DNA of 64,000 bases, from contig AP009389.1 of NCBI GenBank assembly GCA_000010565.1, positions 1,426,001 through 1,490,000 of the forward strand. Reading direction: 5' to 3'. A model generated the notes under the pieces. It searched no databases. It was not told where the DNA came from and was given only the letters and a program-made list of their open reading frames with translations. This DNA comes from Pelotomaculum thermopropionicum SI. GTDB lineage: Bacteria > Bacillota > Desulfotomaculia > Desulfotomaculales > Pelotomaculaceae. A program made the position numbers and the translations under genes. Shown here in pieces: positions 13,796-24,303 of the stretch (the first letter of the stretch is position 1; the number at the start of each line of letters is the position of its first letter).

Positions 13796-15025
13796 TTACC
13801 GGATATAAGCAACATTGTTTTGATGACGGTCATGTTTTTGTTCCTTTTGCCACTGAAGATACTCGGCCATATCTAGATACTTTTTACCGGCTGCCCACTT
13901 GTCGTCGATTTCCATGAGTAAAGCTCCGATTAAACGAACTACCGATTCTCTGTTCGGGAAAATGCGAATGACACGTTCCCGGCGCCGGACTTCTTCGATC
14001 AGGCGCTCAACACCGTTTGTAGTGCGCAGCCGGAGGCGATATTTTTCCGGTAGTACAAGCACTGCCGTAGCATCATCAAAGCCCATTTCAAGTACCCGCA
14101 TGGCCCTAGGCGCCTTTTTCTCAAATGCCTCCAGGGTTTGGTTCAATAATAGCCGGGCGCTGCCGATATCCGGAGCATCCAAAATGGCCCTCAAGCGCGG
14201 GTAAAGTTCTTCCTTTACAGATTTGGGCGCAGAGTCCATGATATTACGCATAAAGTGGGTCTGGCAGCGTTGCCAGGTAACTCCCTGGAAGTGATTGCGA
14301 ACAGCCTTTACCAAACCGCTATGGTCATCTGACACTACCAGGTCGACACCGCGCAGGTTACGGTTTTTAAGCCAAGAGAAAAATTCGCTCCAACTGGCTT
14401 CGGATTCACTGTCGCCAAGCATAATGCCTAAAACTTCCCGGTATCCTTCGGTGTTTAGGCCGATGGCGATCATGACACCCCGGGAGCGGACGCGCCCATC
14501 TTCACGAACTTTGAGCACCAAAGCGTCTACCAATATAAAAGGGTAGCGCATTTCCCGCAAGTCCCGGTTATTCCAAGAGATAACCAGCGGGTCCAGTTTC
14601 TTGCATAAGTCTGAGACAGTGGACTTGGAAAATTCGGCGCCACACAGTTCTTCTGTGATCTGGCTGATTTTTCGGGTAGAGACCCCGTTGATTACCATTT
14701 CCATCAGGGTCAGCACCAGGGCCTGTTCGCTGCGCTGGTACCGGGCGAACATTTCGGTGGAAAACTGACCGTTGCGGAAACGCGGTACTCTTAAGGTTAT
14801 GGTTCCTACCCGGGTTGTCAGTTGGTGCGGGTATGTGCCGTTGCGATATCCCTTTCTTTCATCGGTGCGTTCGTATGGCCCGGCTTGAAGCTGCTCGGTG
14901 GCTTGAGCCTGTAAAATCTGGTTCAATACGGATTCCAGCAGGGCTGCTATACCGGAATCTTTGTTATTACTTAAAAATAGTTGGTGCAAAAGTTCCTGAT
15001 TTACGGTAATCTGATATTGAGCCAT
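13796..15025 (-). CDS. IS256-family transposase
   Basis: This is a full-length DDE transposase (409 residues). It has the N-terminal DNA-binding part (ERTDERKGYRNGTY), the first catalytic Asp in ILVDALVLKVRE, the second in VVSDDHSGL near 240, a following WQRCQTHFMRN motif, and the C-terminal glutamate region TTNGVERLIEEVRRRE. The frame is open with a strong ribosome site (GAGGAGG) before ATG 15025. The copy looks recently active because ends, target duplication and gene are all intact. Confidence 0.95.
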   Translation of the reverse strand: MAQYQITVNQELLHQLFLSNNKDSGIAALLESVLNQILQAQATEQLQAGPYERTDERKGYRNGTYPHQLTTRVGTITLRVPRFRNGQFSTEMFARYQRSEQALVLTLMEMVINGVSTRKISQITEELCGAEFSKSTVSDLCKKLDPLVISWNNRDLREMRYPFILVDALVLKVREDGRVRSRGVMIAIGLNTEGYREVLGIMLGDSESEASWSEFFSWLKNRNLRGVDLVVSDDHSGLVKAVRNHFQGVTWQRCQTHFMRNIMDSAPKSVKEELYPRLRAILDAPDIGSARLLLNQTLEAFEKKAPRAMRVLEMGFDDATAVLVLPEKYRLRLRTTNGVERLIEEVRRRERVIRIFPNRESVVRLIGALLMEIDDKWAAGKKYLDMAEYLQWQKEQKHDRHQNNVAYIR

Positions 15026-17170: not shown

Positions 17171-17246
17171 AGGGGTGTAGCTCAATTGGTAGAGTAGCGG
17201 TCTCCAAAACCGTTGGTTGCGGGTTCGAGTCCTGCCACCCCTGCCA
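17171..17246 (+). tRNA. trnW: tRNA-Trp (anticodon CCA)
   Basis: The 76-nt gene includes the encoded CCA end. The acceptor arms AGGGGTG and CACCCCT pair, the anticodon loop reads CTCCAAA with CCA, and the T loop is TTCGAGT. Its 3' 52 nt are repeated at 24252-24303 because an integrative element is inserted there; the copy here is the complete one. Confidence 0.97.
17195..17246 (+). repeat. attL core, 52-bp direct repeat
   Basis: It runs from the anticodon stem to the CCA end of tRNA-Trp and is identical to 24252-24303. Confidence 0.93.
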
Positions 17247-17369
17247 GCCTTGATATACAAGCCTTTCCCGGTTCGAGGGGAAGGCTGTTTTTATTCAAAT
17301 CCGTTACTCTTGAAAAACGCCTTTCCCATAACAACGGATTATCAAAAATCCGTAAGGGGGAAGGTATCT

Positions 17370-18323
17370 ATGCGGAAAGTGGTAAGGCTAAAAAAGCTGT
17401 CGGTAAAATGGGAACAGGCTTTAGAGGAATTCCTTCTGCACAAGAAGGCCGAAGGGAGGGCCGCCAGGACGTTGTTTGATTACAAGGCCAGAATAACACC
17501 TTTCTTCCAGGCATATCCCGAAGCATGGCCCGATTATGAAGCACTCAGGAGGGCTGTAAGACTGTATCTAGCACAGTTCACCGGCAAAGCACCGGCCAGT
17601 TATAATTTGCCGCTCCAGTACCTGCGTTCCTTCTTTTCGTGGTGCATGGCTGAAAATATGCTGCACGCCAATCCAACCGAAGGCATTGCCAAAAGAAAGG
17701 ATGAAGGCAAGGCCAGGGAGATACCAGAGGACACCTTGAAAAATCTCCTTGCCTTGCCTGACAGAAGGACATATGCAGGTATTCGAGATTACGCCTTGAT
17801 TCTCCTGCAAGTTGACACTGGAATCAGGCCGGGAGAGGCATTAAATTTAAAACCGTCGGATTTCAATATCCCGCAGCTTGAAGTAGTCATTCCCAGGGAA
17901 ACAGCCAAGACAAGGACGCAGAGGACGGCAGTTTACTCGCCGGTAACGGCCAAGGCAATTAAAAGACTGCTTGACGTAAGGCCGCCGGATTGGAATGATT
18001 CTGTGCCTGTCTTCGCAAGCCAGGACGGTAAGAGGATGCTGGAAACGTCCTGGGCTAACAGGCTAAGAGCTTACGGCAAGCGGATTGGGGCTGACTTGCA
18101 GCCTTACATGCTCCGGCATACCTCCGCAATCATGGCCTTGCGTAACGGGGCAACAGCCTTCTTTGTTCAAAAACAACTAGGCCATTCGGATATGCAAATG
18201 ACAAAGCGGTATTGCCGGCTAGTAGAAGAGGATATGCACAGGGAACACTCTATAGCTTCACCTGTAGGGAGCTTAATTCAAACAAGAGCCGTTAAGCCGA
18301 AAGAGAGTAAACGAAGGAAATAG
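17370..18323 (+). CDS. int: Tyrosine recombinase (integrase) of the element
   Basis: This 317-residue site-specific recombinase has an N-terminal SAM-like DNA-binding domain and a C-terminal catalytic domain. The catalytic arginine is in TGIRPGEAL near 195, the HxxR box reads YMLRHTS (first His replaced by Tyr, seen in some members), the second histidine is in LGHSDMQMT, and the nucleophile Tyr in KRYCRL near 283. ATG at 17370 follows GGGGGAAGG by five bases; the open frame runs back into the tRNA but without a ribosome site. It abuts attL, as usual for tRNA-targeting integrases, and ends at a terminator. Confidence 0.93.
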   Translation: MRKVVRLKKLSVKWEQALEEFLLHKKAEGRAARTLFDYKARITPFFQAYPEAWPDYEALRRAVRLYLAQFTGKAPASYNLPLQYLRSFFSWCMAENMLHANPTEGIAKRKDEGKAREIPEDTLKNLLALPDRRTYAGIRDYALILLQVDTGIRPGEALNLKPSDFNIPQLEVVIPRETAKTRTQRTAVYSPVTAKAIKRLLDVRPPDWNDSVPVFASQDGKRMLETSWANRLRAYGKRIGADLQPYMLRHTSAIMALRNGATAFFVQKQLGHSDMQMTKRYCRLVEEDMHREHSIASPVGSLIQTRAVKPKESKRRK

Positions 18324-18350
18324 CAGGGAAAATCCCTGCTTCTTCTTTTG
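18323..18350 (+). terminator. Terminator after the integrase gene
   Basis: AGCAGGGA and TCCCTGCT flank an AAA loop and are followed by TCTTCTTTT. The hairpin overlaps the stop codon. Confidence 0.75.
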
Positions 18351-18474
18351 TCCACCAATACCCTTTTCCCCTTCTTTTGGGTATTTTACCCTTCAGAAGC
18401 CGCAGAATGGCCTACAAGCCGCCTTTTTAATTTGCAAAGGCAATCCATACCGCCCCGGCTATTATCTCCTTGAT

Positions 18475-18678
18475 TTAGGCCATTTCTGCAAGCCTGGGAA
18501 GTGTGCACAGCATTGTGCACAGGCCCCCAGGGGGGGAGGGCAGCCGCGGGGCCGGAGAGATACCTCGAACAGTTTTTACGGACAAAAGGGCCGTCAATTG
18601 ATACAGGGCACCCATGTCCCTTATTGCGTCAACGGCCTTCGCAAACTCGGCGGCACGGCGGATAGTCTTCTCATTCAC
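18475..18678 (-). CDS. Possible small element protein (doubtful)
   Basis: An open frame of about 67 codons from GTG 18678 encodes a helical N-terminus (KTIRRAAEFAKAVDAI) followed by a Pro-rich tail. It lies beyond the terminator that closes the element's minus-strand operon and has no clear ribosome site, so it may not be a gene. Otherwise the 18351-18709 stretch holds nothing I can name. Confidence 0.25.
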   Translation of the reverse strand: MNEKTIRRAAEFAKAVDAIRDMGALYQLTALLSVKTVRGISPAPRLPSPPGGLCTMLCTLPRLAEMA

Positions 18679-18709
18679 TCGGTACAGGTTTTCGCCCCCT
18701 CTTAGGCAG

Positions 18710-18733
18710 CAAAAAACCGGCTCAGTTGCCGGT
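18710..18733 (-). terminator. Terminator of the element's minus-strand operon
   Basis: ACCGGC and GCCGGT flank a six-base loop and are followed on the minus strand by six T. The hairpin overlaps the last codons of the gene ending at 18722. Confidence 0.75.
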
Positions 18734-19153
18734 CTCCAGTTCCAGGGCACCCTCACCGCCACGCCAGGCAATCCGTAAGCGGGCAGGGACTTCATTCTTA
18801 GCCTTTGGCAGCAGGCTTTCCCTCTTGTCTAGTAAAATCCCGGCAGCCACCACCAGGTCACGCAGTCCAGCCTTGTCAATTTTGTCCGGGCCGATTTTAG
18901 CAAGCACCTGCTCGATTTTGTTCTCGATTTCCTTGACTTGCAGCATGTTCCAGTCGCTTGCCTGGCTAACAACTTCTTCCGCAAGCCATTGTTGGACGGT
19001 ACGGACAGGAATGCCAAGCCTCCGGGCAGCCTTTATACCGCTTTTCAGCTCGATGGCCAGATCAACGGCTTGCTGCCGGATTTCTTCGGGCCAAGTATTC
19101 CACGGCTTTTGCCCCTCATAGGGCCTTGGAATTGGTTCAATGGTATCAGTCAT
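18722..19153 (-). CDS. HTH protein resembling a phage terminase small subunit
   Basis: The protein has 143 residues. Residues 20-55 (IRQQAVDLAIELKSGIKAA, RTVQQWLAE) form a homeodomain-like helix-turn-helix. The middle part is helical, and the C-terminus is a short basic/acidic tail (RLRIAWRGGEGALELE) like the large-subunit-binding tail of small terminases. The ribosome site is GAGGTG before ATG 19153. It is the last gene of the operon. A terminase small subunit in an element with no other packaging gene would fit a phage satellite that redirects a helper's packaging. An alternative is a transposase-like HTH regulator. Confidence 0.55.
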   Translation of the reverse strand: MTDTIEPIPRPYEGQKPWNTWPEEIRQQAVDLAIELKSGIKAARRLGIPVRTVQQWLAEEVVSQASDWNMLQVKEIENKIEQVLAKIGPDKIDKAGLRDLVVAAGILLDKRESLLPKAKNEVPARLRIAWRGGEGALELETGN

Positions 19154-19190
19154 TTTATCACCTCATTTTCACGGTTATAATACCTGTAAA

Positions 19191-19361
19191 TTACGCCCTG
19201 AATGCTTCGTCGGGTAATTCAAGCTTTTCTAACTCGGCCTTTATCCGTGCAATCCGTTCTTGTGCGTCAGCAATACCCTCCGGGTCTTTTTCCTCGGCCA
19301 GTATCTTTTTGAAAGTCCGCAGTTTTTCTTCAAGCTCCCGCTTGTGCAGTTGGTATAACAT
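19191..19361 (-). CDS. Small coiled-coil protein of the element
   Basis: A 56-residue frame from ATG 19361 is preceded by GGAGGG eight bases upstream. It is rich in Lys, Glu and Leu with heptad-like spacing (ELEEKLRTFKKILAEE, ERIARIKAELEKLELP), so a short coiled coil is likely. It lies between the zinc-ribbon gene (4 nt) and the HTH gene. Family unknown. Confidence 0.65.
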   Translation of the reverse strand: MLYQLHKRELEEKLRTFKKILAEEKDPEGIADAQERIARIKAELEKLELPDEAFRA

Positions 19362-19364
19362 GAT

Positions 19365-19568
19365 TCAATCCCTCCAAAAACGAATTTTTGATACAGCCTC
19401 AATCAGTAAATCAGGCCACCCGCCGGGCCTGGGGACGGCAGGGCAACGATAACCCCGCCGCCTCGATTCCCGCAAGTCTATCCTTGCCATATATTCCCTG
19501 CATGGCACACAAACGCCTTGTTCCTGCCAATCCTGGTCAACTTCAACGCCGCACCGCTTGCACCGCAT
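19365..19568 (-). CDS. Small zinc-ribbon protein of the element
   Basis: This 67-residue protein has CKRCGVEVDQDW near 3 and CVPCREYMARIDL near 20, a DksA/TraR- or ribbon-like zinc-binding pattern, followed by an Arg-rich stretch. ATG 19568 follows AGGTGG by five bases and lies two bases after the preceding stop, so it is translationally linked to the 240-residue gene. Nucleic-acid binding is plausible but not shown. Confidence 0.65.
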   Translation of the reverse strand: MRCKRCGVEVDQDWQEQGVCVPCREYMARIDLRESRRRGYRCPAVPRPGGWPDLLIEAVSKIRFWRD

Positions 19569-19570
19569 AC

Positions 19571-20293
19571 TTACCACCTGGCCACCGGGATTTTTATTTG
19601 CCGGCACACTTCCTGCTTTTCCAACAGCCGCACAAGCTCATGCCTTACGTGTTCAGCCTGCCGCTTAATCCTGCCGTTGCCGGCCATGCTTGTACCGGCC
19701 AGAAGTGAGGCTTCTTGCTTCAGCAGATCGTCCAGTTCCCGCAAGGACATAATCAAATCCTCGTGGATCGACATAGCTTCGCCAATGGCCTTGTCCACCT
19801 TTTTTTGCAAATCACCCAGGGCCTTTAAGTCCGGCTCCGGTAGCGGACGCAAGGCAGGGCACAAGCTGTAAACTTGTTCCTTTAATTCCGGATAGTCGTC
19901 AACTGCTCTTAAAACGTCTTTGGCGAACATTTCCACGGCCTGCTCTTGCAGTTGCTGAATCTCGCTCAAGTGTTCCTCGGTTAGTTCTAAAATCGCCGGT
20001 TCGCACCGTGCCGCCGATACCCGGTATTCCGTTTCGACGGCTCCCCGCAACGAATCAGCCACGGTTATAAGATCAATGTCCGGTTTCGGTTGCCGCCGCT
20101 TGAGGAAGGATTTACCGGCCTTTTTCTCCTGCTCCTGGTGCTCGGCCAGGACGGTTACAACCTCATTTGCCGCCCGGCTCGCAAGGGTTCGAACGTCCAC
20201 CACTGGACGCCGCTGGATGAAAGGTATTGGTTCCGGGCCGGCCAGCCGCACCGGGACGCCGTCGGGAATACCTGTCGCCGCTGTTTTAAGCAT
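19571..20293 (-). CDS. Unrecognised 240-residue helical element protein
   Basis: I do not recognise this protein. It is soluble, starts with a Pro-rich segment, has a basic patch (KSFLKRRQPKP) near 65 and then a long helical part rich in Glu, Gln and Leu (EEHLSEIQQLQEQAVEMFAK, LKALGDLQKKVDKAIGEAM), probably coiled coil. ATG at 20293 is ten bases from AGGGAG; GTG at 20302 is an alternative. It is in the middle of the element's minus-strand operon, downstream of the primase-polymerase. Confidence 0.7.
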   Translation of the reverse strand: MLKTAATGIPDGVPVRLAGPEPIPFIQRRPVVDVRTLASRAANEVVTVLAEHQEQEKKAGKSFLKRRQPKPDIDLITVADSLRGAVETEYRVSAARCEPAILELTEEHLSEIQQLQEQAVEMFAKDVLRAVDDYPELKEQVYSLCPALRPLPEPDLKALGDLQKKVDKAIGEAMSIHEDLIMSLRELDDLLKQEASLLAGTSMAGNGRIKRQAEHVRHELVRLLEKQEVCRQIKIPVARW

Positions 20294-20308
20294 GATGCTC
20301 ACTCTCCC

Positions 20309-20527
20309 TTAATTGGTTTGCCAATCAGTCAGCACACTCGCCAAAAGCCGACGGGCCTTATCGTCGAAGTCCTTGCGGCTTAACGTCACAGTCCTCAGCC
20401 TTTCGCCATTTTGTGTTAGGATTCGCCGCACGACTTGGAGCTTACCGGCTTCCCGGTAATATTTGAAGGCCACAAACTTTGATTCGACAACTTCCGGTAT
20501 TTCGTTCTCCCACCAATTACCCGCCAC
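20309..20527 (-). CDS. Unrecognised 72-residue element protein
   Basis: GTG at 20527 follows AGGAGG by seven bases. The protein (WWENEIPEVVESKFVAFKYY, RRILTQNGERLRTVTLSRK) alternates beta-like and basic segments and could be a small DNA-binding or accessory factor. It starts one base after the stop of the upstream 35-codon frame and precedes the 240-residue gene by 15 nt. No family recognised. Confidence 0.65.
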   Translation of the reverse strand: MAGNWWENEIPEVVESKFVAFKYYREAGKLQVVRRILTQNGERLRTVTLSRKDFDDKARRLLASVLTDWQTN

Positions 20528-20528
20528 G

Positions 20529-20636
20529 TTATTTCCTCCTTTTGCTATTTTTAGTGTACTTCCGCTTCTTGGTAAGCTTCGCCTCACGCCTTTGTTCCCG
20601 CTCAAAACGCTCCAGCAGTAAATCAATTGAAAACAC
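20529..20636 (-). CDS. Possible 35-residue basic peptide
   Basis: A short frame from GTG 20636 (LLLERFEREQRREAKLTKKR) ends one base before the next start and contains that gene's ribosome site. It is very basic and helical. The start has only a weak ribosome site, so it may instead be a leader that couples translation. Confidence 0.4.
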   Translation of the reverse strand: MFSIDLLLERFEREQRREAKLTKKRKYTKNSKRRK

Positions 20637-20655
20637 CTCGCTTTTTAAACTATTG

Positions 20656-21117
20656 CTAAAAAGGCTTTTCAGCCTCGTCCAGCACCTCGCCACCTTCGGC
20701 CAACTGATGAAGTAGGCAGATCCGCTTCAATGTGGCCTCCCAATCTGCCGCAGCCTGCCGGACGCCTTCAACATCTTGCCGCCAGTAGGCCGCCTCAAAC
20801 CGGTTTTCGGCCTCAGTAAGCCGCTTTTGCAAGTCCGGGAAGTGTGTCCTTGCCCATTGGAGTGCACCTGGCCGGTAAGCCTGGTTGCACCGCTCCAACA
20901 TGCTTGTCCAGGTCAGGTGACAGATAGCTTCGGCTTTTCGTTCCTTTAGTTCCCGCACTATGGCCTTTACCTCCTCCGGGGCACCCTCCCATGAGGGGGG
21001 GGAGGGGGGACGCACCAGTTTTAGAGAATTGCCGTTGGGTTCAATGGACACACCGTGTCCAATTAGTTGGTTGATTAGCTCATATATCGATCGAATCAAT
21101 ATCCTCCCACCCCTCAA
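20656..21117 (-). CDS. Unrecognised element protein of about 150 residues
   Basis: The N-terminus (SIYELINQLIGHGVSIEPNG) resembles small docking domains seen at the start of some phage replication proteins. The rest is helical and rich in Ala, Arg and Glu (RLTEAENRFEAAYWRQD). The frame overlaps the primase-polymerase gene by 38 nt. The start may be TTG at 21117 or TTG at 21099; GGGAGG lies only three bases before the latter. An accessory role in replication is inferred from position only. Confidence 0.65.
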   Translation of the reverse strand: MRGGRILIRSIYELINQLIGHGVSIEPNGNSLKLVRPPSPPSWEGAPEEVKAIVRELKERKAEAICHLTWTSMLERCNQAYRPGALQWARTHFPDLQKRLTEAENRFEAAYWRQDVEGVRQAAADWEATLKRICLLHQLAEGGEVLDEAEKPF

Positions 21118-23017
21118 AAGTCACCGTTTCATTTTCACGTTGCTGGTTACTTTGGTTACTTCGGTAACTTTTTCCCGTGAAGCCTTGTGGCTGTAAGCTT
21201 TGCGGGTTTTCGGCACCGGTAACTTTCCGGTAACTTTCAGCACTCCCCGGTAACTTTTCTTGAAAGTTACCAAAGTTACCGTGGTTACCAAAGTTACCGT
21301 AGTTACCAAAGTTACCGATAATATATCTCCCTCTGGTAACTAACTTTAACTCACCACTTTTAGCCATTACATACACCAGTTTTTTAATATTGGCATATGG
21401 CTTACCGGTCAGGTCGGCTATTTCTTTTGGGCCTAGAGGTTCCTCCGCTTCCCGCAGCACGTCCAGAATCTCCCGCCGCTCACGTGACATCCGATATTCT
21501 GCCGCAGTTCCCATGATATTCCATGTTGTGGTTGCAGGATCGAAAGACAGGGCCAGTTCTTTTTCTTCAAGGTCTCTCCCTGTTACGTAGAGTATGGCAT
21601 CTGCCTGGCCTCTCTCACGGGTCAACACCCAGATTGCATCAGCCGCACCTGAAAGGCCGGTCGATCCCGAAAGCATGTCCACCGGATCTATTTCAGAAGC
21701 CTTTTTCAGGTGGTGGATCAGCATCATGGCCACGCCGCACCGGTCAGCCACCTGTTTCAGCCGGGCGGTATCTTCATAGTCTATGCCGTATATGTTCCCG
21801 TTCCCTCTCTGTACGGGCCGGATCCGCTGAAACGTATCTATTATCACCAGCCGGGGCTCACGTCGAAGAATTTCGGCTTCAAGAAGGGTCAGGCCATTCT
21901 CACCCAGCTTGGGCCATGAGGTATAGAAGTGAAGCTCTCTTGGAGCGGGGCCGCCGTTCAGCACCGACAGCAGCCTGCTTTTCAGCCTCCGGGGAGTATC
22001 CTCCAGGGCCAGGTACATCACCGGGCCGGGTTCCACGTCCACACCCAGGGCCTTGCCTCCGTTGGCAACGGCAACGGCCAGATTCAGGGCCAGCCAGCTT
22101 TTGCCGATTTTCGCCTTGCCGCCTAGAATGGTTAGTCCCTCCGGGAGAAGGCCGGGGACGCACCAGGCAGGGTCGGGGAAGTCCATCTTCAGGAGGTCTG
22201 TGGCTGAAACGCCTTTAGGATTACCGCCTCCTTCGGGATATTTCCAGGCTTGCTCCACTTTTAGCCGGGCTTCCCGCTCCGGGAAAGGTGGTGTGCAGTT
22301 CCGGGCTGCCTCCAGCACCAGCCGCAGGGCCTCTTCCCTGGTAAGCCCCTGCGTCCTCAGCCGGCAGGCATACCTAAAAAGAGTCACATCCCTTTGCCCT
22401 TCGGGAACGCCCGCCAGCACCCGCACCGGGTCGATTTTTGAAGAAGAATTTCCACCTGGCCTTTTCAACAGCTCCACCAGCCAGGCCGGGGCCTCTGCCG
22501 GCTCCGGCATGTCGGCAGGGGAAAGGCCGTCCACCCATCCATATTTTTTCCCGGACACATGGACGCTGCCTGGGGCCACCACATAGCCGCCGTCACCGCG
22601 AATGTCCACGCCGGGGAGTATGCCGGTTCGACACTCCACCGGAAAACCGGGCCACTGAAAGTATATATGCCGGCCTTTCCCGGTCCTCACCATCCAGGTC
22701 GGGGGGATGTGCTTCCCGCGAAGGGAAGCCTCCCCTTCCGGGCCGTCCATGTCCAAGACGACCACCTCCGACACTTTGCCGGTCACTACCGCCCAGTTAC
22801 AGCCGGGGTATTTTCCCCTCCATTGGGTTACTTCATCCCGTGTAGGCCGCCTCCGCTGATATACCCGCCATTCCGGGATACAGGGGTGCTTGCCTGGCTT
22901 AGTGCAGTCGTTTTTTCCGCAGGTACACTTTCCGTTTTTCAGACTGTGAAGCGGGATCACGGAAAACTTTTGGAAAATGTCGTCGTTTTGTGGTACACTA
23001 TACTTAGATCGGTTCAC
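21080..23017 (-). CDS. Primase-polymerase / RepA-like helicase fusion
   Basis: This is the element's replication protein (645 residues). The N-terminus (about 1-200) is a bifunctional primase-polymerase domain: a Cys-rich entry (CTCGKNDCTKPGKHPC), the catalytic DxD in VVVLDMDGPEG near 90, and GRHIYFQWPG. The centre is a RecA/RepA-type ATPase with Walker A GGKAKIGKSWLA near 300, Walker B LVIIDTFQRI near 385, and an IHHLKK motif. A winged-helix-like part follows (LGPKEIADLTGKPYANIKK). The C-terminal 100 residues are low-complexity Gly-Asn-Phe repeats encoded by 9-bp repeats. GTG 23017 is the start. It is expected to prime and unwind the excised element. Confidence 0.88.
   Translation of the reverse strand: MNRSKYSVPQNDDIFQKFSVIPLHSLKNGKCTCGKNDCTKPGKHPCIPEWRVYQRRRPTRDEVTQWRGKYPGCNWAVVTGKVSEVVVLDMDGPEGEASLRGKHIPPTWMVRTGKGRHIYFQWPGFPVECRTGILPGVDIRGDGGYVVAPGSVHVSGKKYGWVDGLSPADMPEPAEAPAWLVELLKRPGGNSSSKIDPVRVLAGVPEGQRDVTLFRYACRLRTQGLTREEALRLVLEAARNCTPPFPEREARLKVEQAWKYPEGGGNPKGVSATDLLKMDFPDPAWCVPGLLPEGLTILGGKAKIGKSWLALNLAVAVANGGKALGVDVEPGPVMYLALEDTPRRLKSRLLSVLNGGPAPRELHFYTSWPKLGENGLTLLEAEILRREPRLVIIDTFQRIRPVQRGNGNIYGIDYEDTARLKQVADRCGVAMMLIHHLKKASEIDPVDMLSGSTGLSGAADAIWVLTRERGQADAILYVTGRDLEEKELALSFDPATTTWNIMGTAAEYRMSRERREILDVLREAEEPLGPKEIADLTGKPYANIKKLVYVMAKSGELKLVTRGRYIIGNFGNYGNFGNHGNFGNFQEKLPGSAESYRKVTGAENPQSLQPQGFTGKSYRSNQSNQQRENETVTFEGWEDIDSIDI
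21266..21316. repeat. Six 9-bp iteron-like repeats inside the replicase gene
   Basis: GTTACC recurs at 21266, 21275, 21284, 21293, 21302 and 21311, an exact 9-bp period, in units GTTACCAAA and GTTACCGTR. Inverted copies (GGTAAC) lie at 21163, 21218, 21229 and 21249. They encode a Gly-Asn-aromatic tripeptide repeat in the replicase. Confidence 0.85.
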
Positions 23018-23024
23018 CTTTGGA

Positions 23025-23429
23025 TCACCGCCTTACCCCGGATACGCCGGGGCTTATTTCTTCTTCCTGGAATATTGAAAGCTGTTCCTGTGCCACGTTT
23101 TTCCAGTACCGGTACGGAAGGTACATCCGCCGGGGATGGAGCGGGCCGATTCGCTGAACGTCCGTTCTGGGGTGGTTCCGCAGGACGCCCAGGGGAATTT
23201 CGTACACCGTACCGCCGACGATATGTCTGACTATCGTGCTTTCGGGAAGCTCTGGTTCGTATCGAAGGTCTATCCCCGCCGCTCCACGGATTCGAAGGAC
23301 TTGCTCAGGCCGGATTTTCTGCTCAAAAACTACCCTGCCATTCTCACGATAGAGGACGCCGCATTTTTTCCACGTACCGTTCACGAATGCTGAAACAGCC
23401 ACACTATCCTTTTTTCGAGAACGTTTCAT
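23025..23429 (-). CDS. Unrecognised 134-residue element protein
   Basis: ATG 23429 follows GAGGTGG by six bases. The protein is basic at both ends, with a beta-rich centre (YRENGRVVFEQKIRPEQVL, GAAGIDLRYEPELPE) and a Pro/Arg-rich stretch (GPLHPRRMYLPYRYWKNVA). It ends seven bases before the replicase start and probably acts with it. No family recognised. Confidence 0.65.
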   Translation of the reverse strand: MKRSRKKDSVAVSAFVNGTWKKCGVLYRENGRVVFEQKIRPEQVLRIRGAAGIDLRYEPELPESTIVRHIVGGTVYEIPLGVLRNHPRTDVQRIGPLHPRRMYLPYRYWKNVAQEQLSIFQEEEISPGVSGVRR

Positions 23430-23459
23430 TTTCTTCCACCTCTTTTTTTTGTTTTCAAA

Positions 23460-23485
23460 AATAAAAAAGCCGCCTAATGACGGCT
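23460..23485 (-). terminator. Terminator after the excisionase-like gene
   Basis: On the minus strand AGCCG and CGGCT enclose eight bases and run into TTTTTTATTTTT. It lies about 45 nt past the HTH gene, so that gene may be separately transcribed or attenuated from the replication genes. Confidence 0.65.
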
Positions 23486-23486
23486 A

Positions 23487-23517
23487 ACGGGAAGGTTCTC
23501 GGCCTTCCCGTTTTTTT
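23487..23517 (+). terminator. Plus-strand-oriented terminator hairpin
   Basis: ACGGGAAGG and CCTTCCCGT enclose seven bases followed by seven T on the plus strand. No plus-strand gene leads into it; it may block antisense transcription into the HTH gene. Confidence 0.55.
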
Positions 23518-23528
23518 GTATTTTTTTT

Positions 23529-23702
23529 TTACCCACTCATCAGCCACTCTAAAAAACTCTCCCGGTGAATCCTGATACACTTCCTCCCTATCCGCTTTGC
23601 CCGGATTACACCTTCCCGCACCAGCCGGTAGACTACGGCCGGGCCGACACCGCTTAGTTTGGCAGCCTCCTTTACCGTGAGAAATACCGGGTGTTCGCTC
23701 AT
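23529..23702 (-). CDS. Excisionase-family HTH protein (AlpA/HTH_17 type)
   Basis: This 57-residue protein is a MerR-like excisionase-type helix-turn-helix. FLTVKEAAKLSGVG, VVYRLVREGVIRAKRIGRK and the final IHRESFLEWL are characteristic. ATG 23702 follows GGAGGTG by six bases. It is the first gene of the minus-strand block, downstream of the palindromic operator region, so it likely regulates excision or expression of the element. Confidence 0.85.
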   Translation of the reverse strand: MSEHPVFLTVKEAAKLSGVGPAVVYRLVREGVIRAKRIGRKCIRIHRESFLEWLMSG

Positions 23703-23820
23703 GGTTCCCACCTCCTTTCAGGCTGTCTTTAACAAAAAAAAGACGCTTTTGCATCTTTAATTTTTTTGTGTTGTGAAGTTTTTATAATACCATTTTTAAG
23801 TCTTATTATGCCGGGTGGTG

Positions 23821-23928
23821 TGTATACATACCGTTTTCTTGTTTCGTGAAAACAGTATGCCTAAACAATCCATTATAATTTTAATACCGTTTTATATACT
23901 ATTGTGTGTATACACATCATGTATACAT
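23821..23928. promoter_or_regulatory. Three TGTATACA palindromes, probable repressor operators
   Basis: Palindromes lie at 23821-23828 (TGTATACA), 23905-23916 (TGTGTATACACA, perfect) and 23919-23928 (ATGTATACAT, perfect). The last two are centred 13 bp apart. They sit upstream of the HTH/replication block, as expected for operators of an element repressor. Confidence 0.6.
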
Positions 23929-24044
23929 ATTTCAACTAAACTTGCGTACATAGTTAACGGTTTCCGCACAAGCTCATGGTAAAAGCGTAACATATTTGTT
24001 AACTAAAAATACGGACGTGGTTGACAGTTCCCCAGCACGGTAAT

Positions 24045-24080
24045 AAAAAAACAAAAACGCTGCACAGCCATAAGCGTTTC
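24045..24080 (-). terminator. Hairpin with T-tract near attR
   Basis: AAACGCT and AGCGTTT flank 11 bases; on the minus strand the hairpin runs into TTTGTTTTTTTATT. It could insulate the element from host transcription entering through attR. Confidence 0.5.
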
Positions 24081-24251
24081 TTATTTGTAACGCCAGGAAA
24101 TTTTATAGGTAGGAAGCGGGAAGGAAGCAGGGGAAGGACAACGGATTTGACGAAAATAAGGTACTAAAAAATACGCAAATCCGTTGTTGGTGGAAAGGCA
24201 AAAAATCCGGGAAAGCTTGTGGCTGTAGGGCTGGAGGGCTTCCGGGCCAGT

Positions 24252-24303
24252 TAGCGGTCTCCAAAACCGTTGGTTGCGGGTTCGAGTCCTGCCACCCCTG
24301 CCA
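24252..24303 (+). repeat. attR core, 52-bp direct repeat
   Basis: This is a perfect copy of 17195-17246: the 3' part of tRNA-Trp without its 5' half. It is the displaced original tRNA end. Confidence 0.93.

Follow-up and report, generated by a model that had tools for sequence, protein, structure and literature searches.

A compact phage-satellite-like element at a tRNA-Trp gene of Pelotomaculum thermopropionicum SI and its tail-gene-bearing relatives in the Desulfotomaculales

Introduction

Chimeric-tail satellites were first shown in 2026 among the PLEs of Vibrio cholerae; the chimeric tails of PLE11 use tape measure protein (TMP), TAC and BhuB encoded by the satellite itself, and according to that study no other TMP-encoding satellite had been reported before (PMC12987554). 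The study also shows putative tmp in cf-PICIs and PLE-like elements, and among E. coli satellites some are known to encode MCP, TMP and a baseplate component (PMC10448857). This study addresses a 64-kb stretch of Pelotomaculum thermopropionicum SI, referred to as the window, in which a 7,057-bp element is integrated at a tRNA-Trp gene. The element is real and apparently intact, and belongs to a lineage for which we found no description; the wider family is the more interesting find. Reading from its genes and those of its relatives, we consider it reasonably probable that the element is an integrated phage-satellite-like element, whose DNA would be directed into helper-phage particles by the product of orf143, a predicted small terminase (TerS). 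It is a compact member, devoid of a tape measure gene, of a putative satellite family largely confined to the Desulfotomaculales. The literature searched yielded no satellite described from Desulfotomaculum.

Comparison with described systems

In the broad sense, a phage satellite is an integrated element with its own integration and replication genes and no complete virion set, which travels in the particles of a helper phage; the window element has the gene content of this kind and would share the mode of transfer. Compared with the PICI feature list (PMC6092414), it is similar to the Gram-positive, SaPI-type islands in its small size, its site-specific integration, its int and xis genes, its lack of capsid and lysis genes, its primase-helicase replicon with iterons, and its TerS homologue, which is an optional PICI feature. 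It has the specific attachment site with int (52-bp repeats, PF00589, and an empty site in genome G063) and the terS homologue, whose family stands next to the large terminase (TerL) in two prophages. A divergent regulator pair (stl/rpr or alpA) between int and xis-rep is missing, the only such gene being a xis-type HTH_17 gene at the far end, and the unidirectional order of int, regulators, xis, pri-rep, ori, interference genes and terS is not found, as int is convergent. Because the regulator pair and gene order are absent, the element is not classed as a PICI. It further differs in its replicase, a Prim-Pol (PF09250) with AAA_25, in the tape measure and tail-tip genes of its relatives, and in the restriction of TerS-bearing elements to the host's own order, with one more relative in about 400 genomes of the phylum.

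The window element itself has neither a tape measure gene nor a tail-tip gene, and so lacks the own tmp gene of a PLE-type satellite. Its larger relatives are like PLE11 in having their own TMP and another tail protein without a full tail or capsid; they differ in host phylum, in their unrelated genes, in a tyrosine integrase acting at tRNA genes, and in the presence of TerS. The partial tail gene sets of these relatives also recall the E. coli satellites (PMC10448857) and cf-PICIs (PMC12987554), which carry capsid genes, whereas none were found here. The relatives resemble PLE11 and the E. coli satellites in their partial tail sets, with no established common ancestry.

The PICMIs are marked by AlpA, integration next to fis and the absence of terS, and are packaged as multimers (PMC10803314). 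Like them, the window element is very small, carries int and a primase, would need a helper for nearly everything, and could plausibly be packaged as multimers. It differs in its TerS and tRNA-Trp site, and no AlpA match was found.

The AICEs (pSAM2 group) combine a Prim-Pol replicase, tRNA integration, int and xis with a TraB/FtsK transfer protein. The window element shares all of these except the last; no protein of the element matches a TraB/FtsK or relaxase family.

orf143 as a candidate small terminase

The assignment of orf143 as TerS is the key step of the satellite reading, and the gene neighbourhoods of its homologues make it very likely.

18722..19153, minus strand: orf143, TerS-like; N-terminal helix-turn-helix (HTH), helical hairpin and C-terminal beta hairpin (prophage homologues, PDB match, model).

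The original prediction had called this protein small-terminase-like, and the call gains from its genomic context what it lacks in Pfam and PHROGs, where the match is weak. In the prophage of G012 (L065; G-numbers denote compared genomes and L-numbers compared loci), the genes for TerL, portal and major capsid protein come directly after a family member that is 34% identical to orf143 in an alignment that runs the full length, beyond the HTH. A more distant member in the G027 prophage (L210) lies upstream of TerL-sized and portal-sized genes, and matches the orf143-family profile at E=5.6e-11 over 106 columns (97% probability). The family profile also matches PDB 2ao9, a Bacillus cereus phage protein, over the HTH and hairpin (E=0.007). 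In the structural model the C-terminal beta hairpin is a conserved feature, and the HTH alone is of high confidence.

Within the order, 10 of the 113 genomes have strong family members, and a phylum sample of 398 genomes gave one relative outside the own genome (G196). This relative, from another class, is the sole one outside the order in that sample; its locus (L209:6805-16208) carries an integrase, an HTH-less TerS relative, and Ntn and tail-tip genes. A search of the phage collection with orf143 returned no match. The annotated TerS of Enterococcus phage fHoEfm07 was considered as a close relative and rejected, the similarity being confined to the HTH.

Relatives with tail genes

TerS is carried by 13 integrated elements of the order, the window element included, with many tRNA genes as sites. 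At least seven of the 13 have a tape measure gene (PF10145, phrog_4211) of about 1,400 aa, and at least eight have a tail-tip domain protein or protein pair. Homologues of TerL, portal and capsid proteins were sought with three, three and two queries, respectively, and were found in none of the 19 elements compared. Several of the relatives' contigs are cut, so that the tail-gene counts are lower bounds and only for complete elements can capsid genes be called absent with certainty. Complete tail-bearing elements number two: one in G023 (19.0 kb, tRNA-Arg, 49-bp repeat) and one in G032 (C158; 18.6 kb, tRNA-Leu, 59-bp repeat).

The gene order in G032 and G033 is replicase, orf153, TerS, orf105, orf243, orf80, coiled coil and tape measure; in the window element it is replicase, orf153, orf105, orf243, orf80, orf56 and TerS. 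The tail-tip proteins combine a domain that weakly matches the proteasome type (PF00227, E=0.0013) with a stretch homologous to the C-terminal end of a phage tail-tip protein. The Ntn-hydrolase-like and tail-tip parts form one protein at L062:9743-11533, L073:16139-17851 and L072:1108-2709, and two genes in G100, G094 and G196. The satellite tape measures end in a copper-amine-oxidase-N-like domain (PF07833; L062:14600-16010, L073:14663-16036), which is unusual for a tape measure.

The prophage of G012 holds homologues of all three proteins: TerS, tape measure and tail-tip. Its tape measure is 35.5% identical over 1,399 aa to that of the G023 satellite, and its tail-tip protein matches a G091 satellite protein at E=3e-30. 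Of the order's 113 genomes, three have TerL of the G012 type, including the satellite-bearing G091. Together with TerS, the homology of the relatives' tape measure and tail-tip proteins to this phage points to transfer in helper particles.

Most relatives also carry a divergent gene of 250-380 aa in the master-regulator position, in several unrelated-looking subfamilies (L062:3417-4406, L071:5360-6241, L027:2512-3492 and others). It often has a CxxC...C zinc-finger-like motif with weak similarity to DUF6076/zf-CGNR.

Boundaries and target site

Two identical 52-bp direct repeats, offset by 7057, match the 3' end of tRNA-Trp; a perfect match of this length is far beyond chance.

17171..17246, plus strand: tRNA-Trp(CCA), intact target gene (ARAGORN; Rfam 69.1 bits), its last 52 nt forming attL.
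17195..17246, plus strand: attL core, 52 bp, perfect direct repeat.
24252..24303, plus strand: attR core, 52 bp, perfect direct repeat; 3' tRNA fragment, not a functional tRNA (33.2-bit pseudo-tRNA).

The second 'tRNA' (24227-24303; Rfam 33.2 against 69.1 bits) is a duplicated 3' part fused to unrelated element DNA. Since the whole tRNA gene is present only at the left copy, the element proper is taken as 17195-24251, between tRNA-Trp and the EF-G gene; an Rfam scan of it gave nothing besides the two tRNA copies.

As the original prediction had proposed, the tRNA-Trp locus was compared in related genomes, and its account of the bounds agrees with what they hold. In the window, the element is followed on its right by EF-G, MurJ and SurE; in G063 their orthologues start within about 90 bp of the same tRNA-Trp, leaving an empty site. 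In G096, beside a ddl orthologue, the tRNA-Trp is followed by an integrase N-terminal remnant, 50% identical over 38 residues to the window integrase. In G062 (L224:3754-13972) the tRNA-Trp/EF-G site is occupied by a different 9.3-kb island, and the tRNA 3' end is present there a third time. These loci mark the element as an evidently genuine insertion, and the tRNA-Trp site as a hot spot common to relatives. Upstream of the element, a gene judged by eye to be Mutator-type transposase-like lies at 13796-15025.

Gene content

The integrase gene is the only one on the plus strand. All others are on the minus strand and convergent with it, in the order, from the right end, xis, orf134, replicase, orf153, orf105, orf243, orf80, orf56 and orf143.

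17370..18323, plus strand: tyrosine integrase, 317 aa, ATG at 17370, XerC/D-like, without an arm-binding N-domain (PF00589, 1e-26).
18547..18690, minus strand: short conserved remnant (VNEKTIRRAAEFAKAVDAI...), 51% over 39 aa to L032, the own-genome tRNA-Gly element.
19191..19361, minus strand: orf56, small coiled-coil-like protein (tblastn 33% to L068; G032 counterpart directly upstream of tmp).
19365..19607, minus strand: orf80, zinc-ribbon-like, true start probably internal (40-51% to G023, G032 and G033 elements).
19571..20302, minus strand: orf243, all-helical, core gene of the family, conserved RW at the end (family alignment; model pLDDT 83).
20309..20527, minus strand: orf105, about 72 aa if begun at the homologues' start (WWENE...; 26-45% to G032/G033 elements).
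20656..21117, minus strand: orf153, TubC_N-like (66% to the own-genome tRNA-Gly element; family TubC_N 2.8e-5, below cut-off).
21080..23017, minus strand: replicase, 645 aa, Prim-Pol, PriCT_1, AAA_25 (RepA-like helicase) and winged helix (Pfam).
23025..23429, minus strand: orf134, conserved protein upstream of the replicase (50-56% to G079, G080 and G067).
23529..23711, minus strand: excisionase-type HTH_17 protein, 60 aa (PF12728 4e-15; TIGR01764 1.9e-12, over cut-off).

The main genes are all open, and an alignment with five relatives shows that the integrase retains the catalytic R..K..R..H..Y. The integrase and excisionase-like HTH protein named in the original prediction are borne out by the family matches above, and its statement that structural, lysis and conjugation genes are absent agrees with searches of Pfam, PHROGs and NCBIfam, which returned no TerL, portal, capsid, lysis, relaxase or conjugation gene and no rolling-circle Rep, FtsK/TraB or coupling protein. 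It had also counted five proteins without a known family. Curated matches are indeed missing, the number being six: orf56, orf80, orf105, orf134, orf153 and orf243 have no curated family above cut-off, and orf153, whose homologue comes after the replicase in most relatives, is TubC_N-like below it. The orf243 profile met only coiled-coil background in PDB. PADLOC gave only HTH cross-matches on the element, and when CRISPR spacers against it were sought in the order's genomes, the short DNA matches proved to be tRNA, replicase or coding motifs, with none seen that was spacer-like.

Replication module

The primase-polymerase/helicase of the original prediction is confirmed by PF09250 (2.7e-32), PriCT_1 and AAA_25 (1.3e-30).

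21144..21316, no strand assigned: iteron array of ten AGTTACC copies within the 3' end of the replicase gene, candidate origin of replication.

The ten AGTTACC copies lie within the final 420 nt of the replicase gene, and a G080 replicase (58% identical) also has ten in the same place. In G014 and in the second G080 element other repeats replace AGTTACC, together with an altered C-terminal winged-helix region. From this we infer that the array is the replication origin.

Near full-length replicase relatives occur in G014 (75%), G079 (59%) and G080 (58 and 55%). The G079 element and the two G080 elements are bounded by tRNA-Leu direct repeats of 41-42, 35 and 39 bp, measure 6.2-8.0 kb, and have integrases 42-46% identical to that of the window element. 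The phage and plasmid collections gave only partial replicase matches below 60% identity, and the IMG/VR viral contigs gave no relative.

Two further replicase-bearing regions were seen in the own genome. One, at tRNA-Gly CCC (L032:3986-12014), is a second element with an orf153 homologue (66%) and RepA; second copies of its tRNA 3' end and integrase C-terminus lie at the far end, resembling a two-tandem-copy scar. The other (L031:7481-10188) is a third replicase region, with a separate Prim-Pol (452 aa), an adjoining 453-aa gene and no obvious tRNA boundary.

Accessory integration sites

Inverted pairs at both ends are candidate accessory sites of the integrase, from motif counts and spacing.

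17296..17342, no strand assigned: left inverted pair, candidate accessory integrase-type sites (AAATCCGTT ... AACGGATT).
24137..24190, no strand assigned: right inverted pair, candidate accessory sites (CAACGGATTT ... AAATCCGTTG).

The motif AATCCGTT has eight copies in the 64 kb, four of them at the two element ends. The window element and three bounded relatives (L028, L029, L075) share inverted pairs of about 9 nt with like spacing, one pair 50-95 nt inside the tRNA end and the second 60-115 nt inside the other end. The sites resemble the anticodon arm of the element's own target tRNA, most clearly for Leu(TAA) against Leu(CAA). In the tRNA-Leu(TAA) element the accessory site is an exact anticodon arm copy (CAAGGGACT), and its end zones match the own target 23 times and the Leu(CAA) target once; the end zones of the Leu(CAA) elements have 8-10 own-target matches against 4-6. 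The end zones of the window element show an enrichment of about sixfold relative to its interior and do not discriminate between targets (9 for the own target, 11 for Leu(CAA)). The pattern suggests that one integrase surface binds both the core and the accessory sites, and that the latter are re-tuned with the target. With such re-tuned sites, integrase target switching would become testable.

Proposed life cycle and alternative explanations

In the proposed cycle, Int and Xis would excise the element as a circle, and the replicase would bind the AGTTACC iterons and copy it. During helper growth, orf143 would replace the helper TerS at the helper TerL and steer element DNA into helper particles. 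Because 7 kb is far below phage genome size, packaging would probably be as multimers, as in PICMIs, which is the simplest guess. The products of orf243, orf105, orf80 and orf56 may serve helper interaction or late functions. The larger relatives would add their own tape measure and tail-tip domain, probably giving partly self-made tails on helper particles; tail piracy is proposed for them, not for the window element.

Several observations weigh against this cycle. The own genome has no TerL in searches with PF03237, phrog_2 and the G012-type TerL, and therefore any helper must come from outside. The orf143 model has a pLDDT of about 60 outside the HTH, Foldseek found no significant match to it, and between the orf143 profile and the TerS annotated in an Enterococcus phage whose portal is related, only the HTH aligns. 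Moreover, orf143 stands at the operon end, not ahead of structural genes, and the divergent zinc-finger gene of most relatives is absent. Part of this would suit an integrative plasmid-like element that spreads by natural transformation or chance transduction, with orf143 acting as a DNA-binding regulator instead of a functional TerS. The complete integration and replication module with iterons, the own genome without a helper, and the same-integrase tRNA-Leu relatives in G079 and G080, which lack TerS, tape measure and tail-tip, fit such an element. We nevertheless judge it unlikely, as the similarity of orf143 to a protein ahead of TerL in prophages spans its length and is not limited to the HTH, and TerS accompanies tape measure and tail-tip genes in related elements.

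The window element may also be a reduced, immobile derivative of a larger tape-measure-bearing satellite, left without regulator and tail genes. In common with the tape-measure-bearing elements it has orf105-orf243-orf80-coiled coil; it lacks their tape measure, tail-tip and zinc-finger genes, and has a short remnant reading frame adjoining orf143. Its core genes are open, however, with the integrase catalytic residues retained, the att repeats perfect, and the iterons and accessory sites intact, and we hold immobility to be quite improbable. Mobilisation from an oriT that escaped notice, driven by a conjugative helper, would suit the small size and tRNA site, which are frequent in mobilisable elements; with no relaxase, rolling-circle Rep, FtsK/TraB or coupling protein found in Pfam, PHROGs or NCBIfam, we regard it as very improbable indeed. 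The original prediction had left the choice between an undescribed satellite and a mobilisable family. The satellite half is favoured by TerS upstream of TerL in prophages and by the relatives' tail genes, and the mobilisable half finds no support from any relaxase or transfer gene. A match to a well-described family, or lack of excision together with decaying genes in this one genome, had been named as refuting it; the comparisons gave no such match, and they showed relatives in other genomes and open main genes.

Significance

On the broader proposal our judgement is evenly balanced: an undescribed satellite family of the Desulfotomaculales may have drawn TerS, tape measure and tail-tip from one helper phage lineage and make chimeric tails, a strategy that would have arisen separately from that of the Vibrio PLEs, with the 7-kb element as a stripped form that retains TerS only. 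If true, the chimeric-tail strategy would also exist in strictly anaerobic, often syntrophic Firmicutes, by way of unrelated genes, and the parasitised phage lineage would be identified. The family would then offer a series of steps, beginning with TerS alone and leading to TerS with tail-tip and tape measure, for study of the evolution of piracy.

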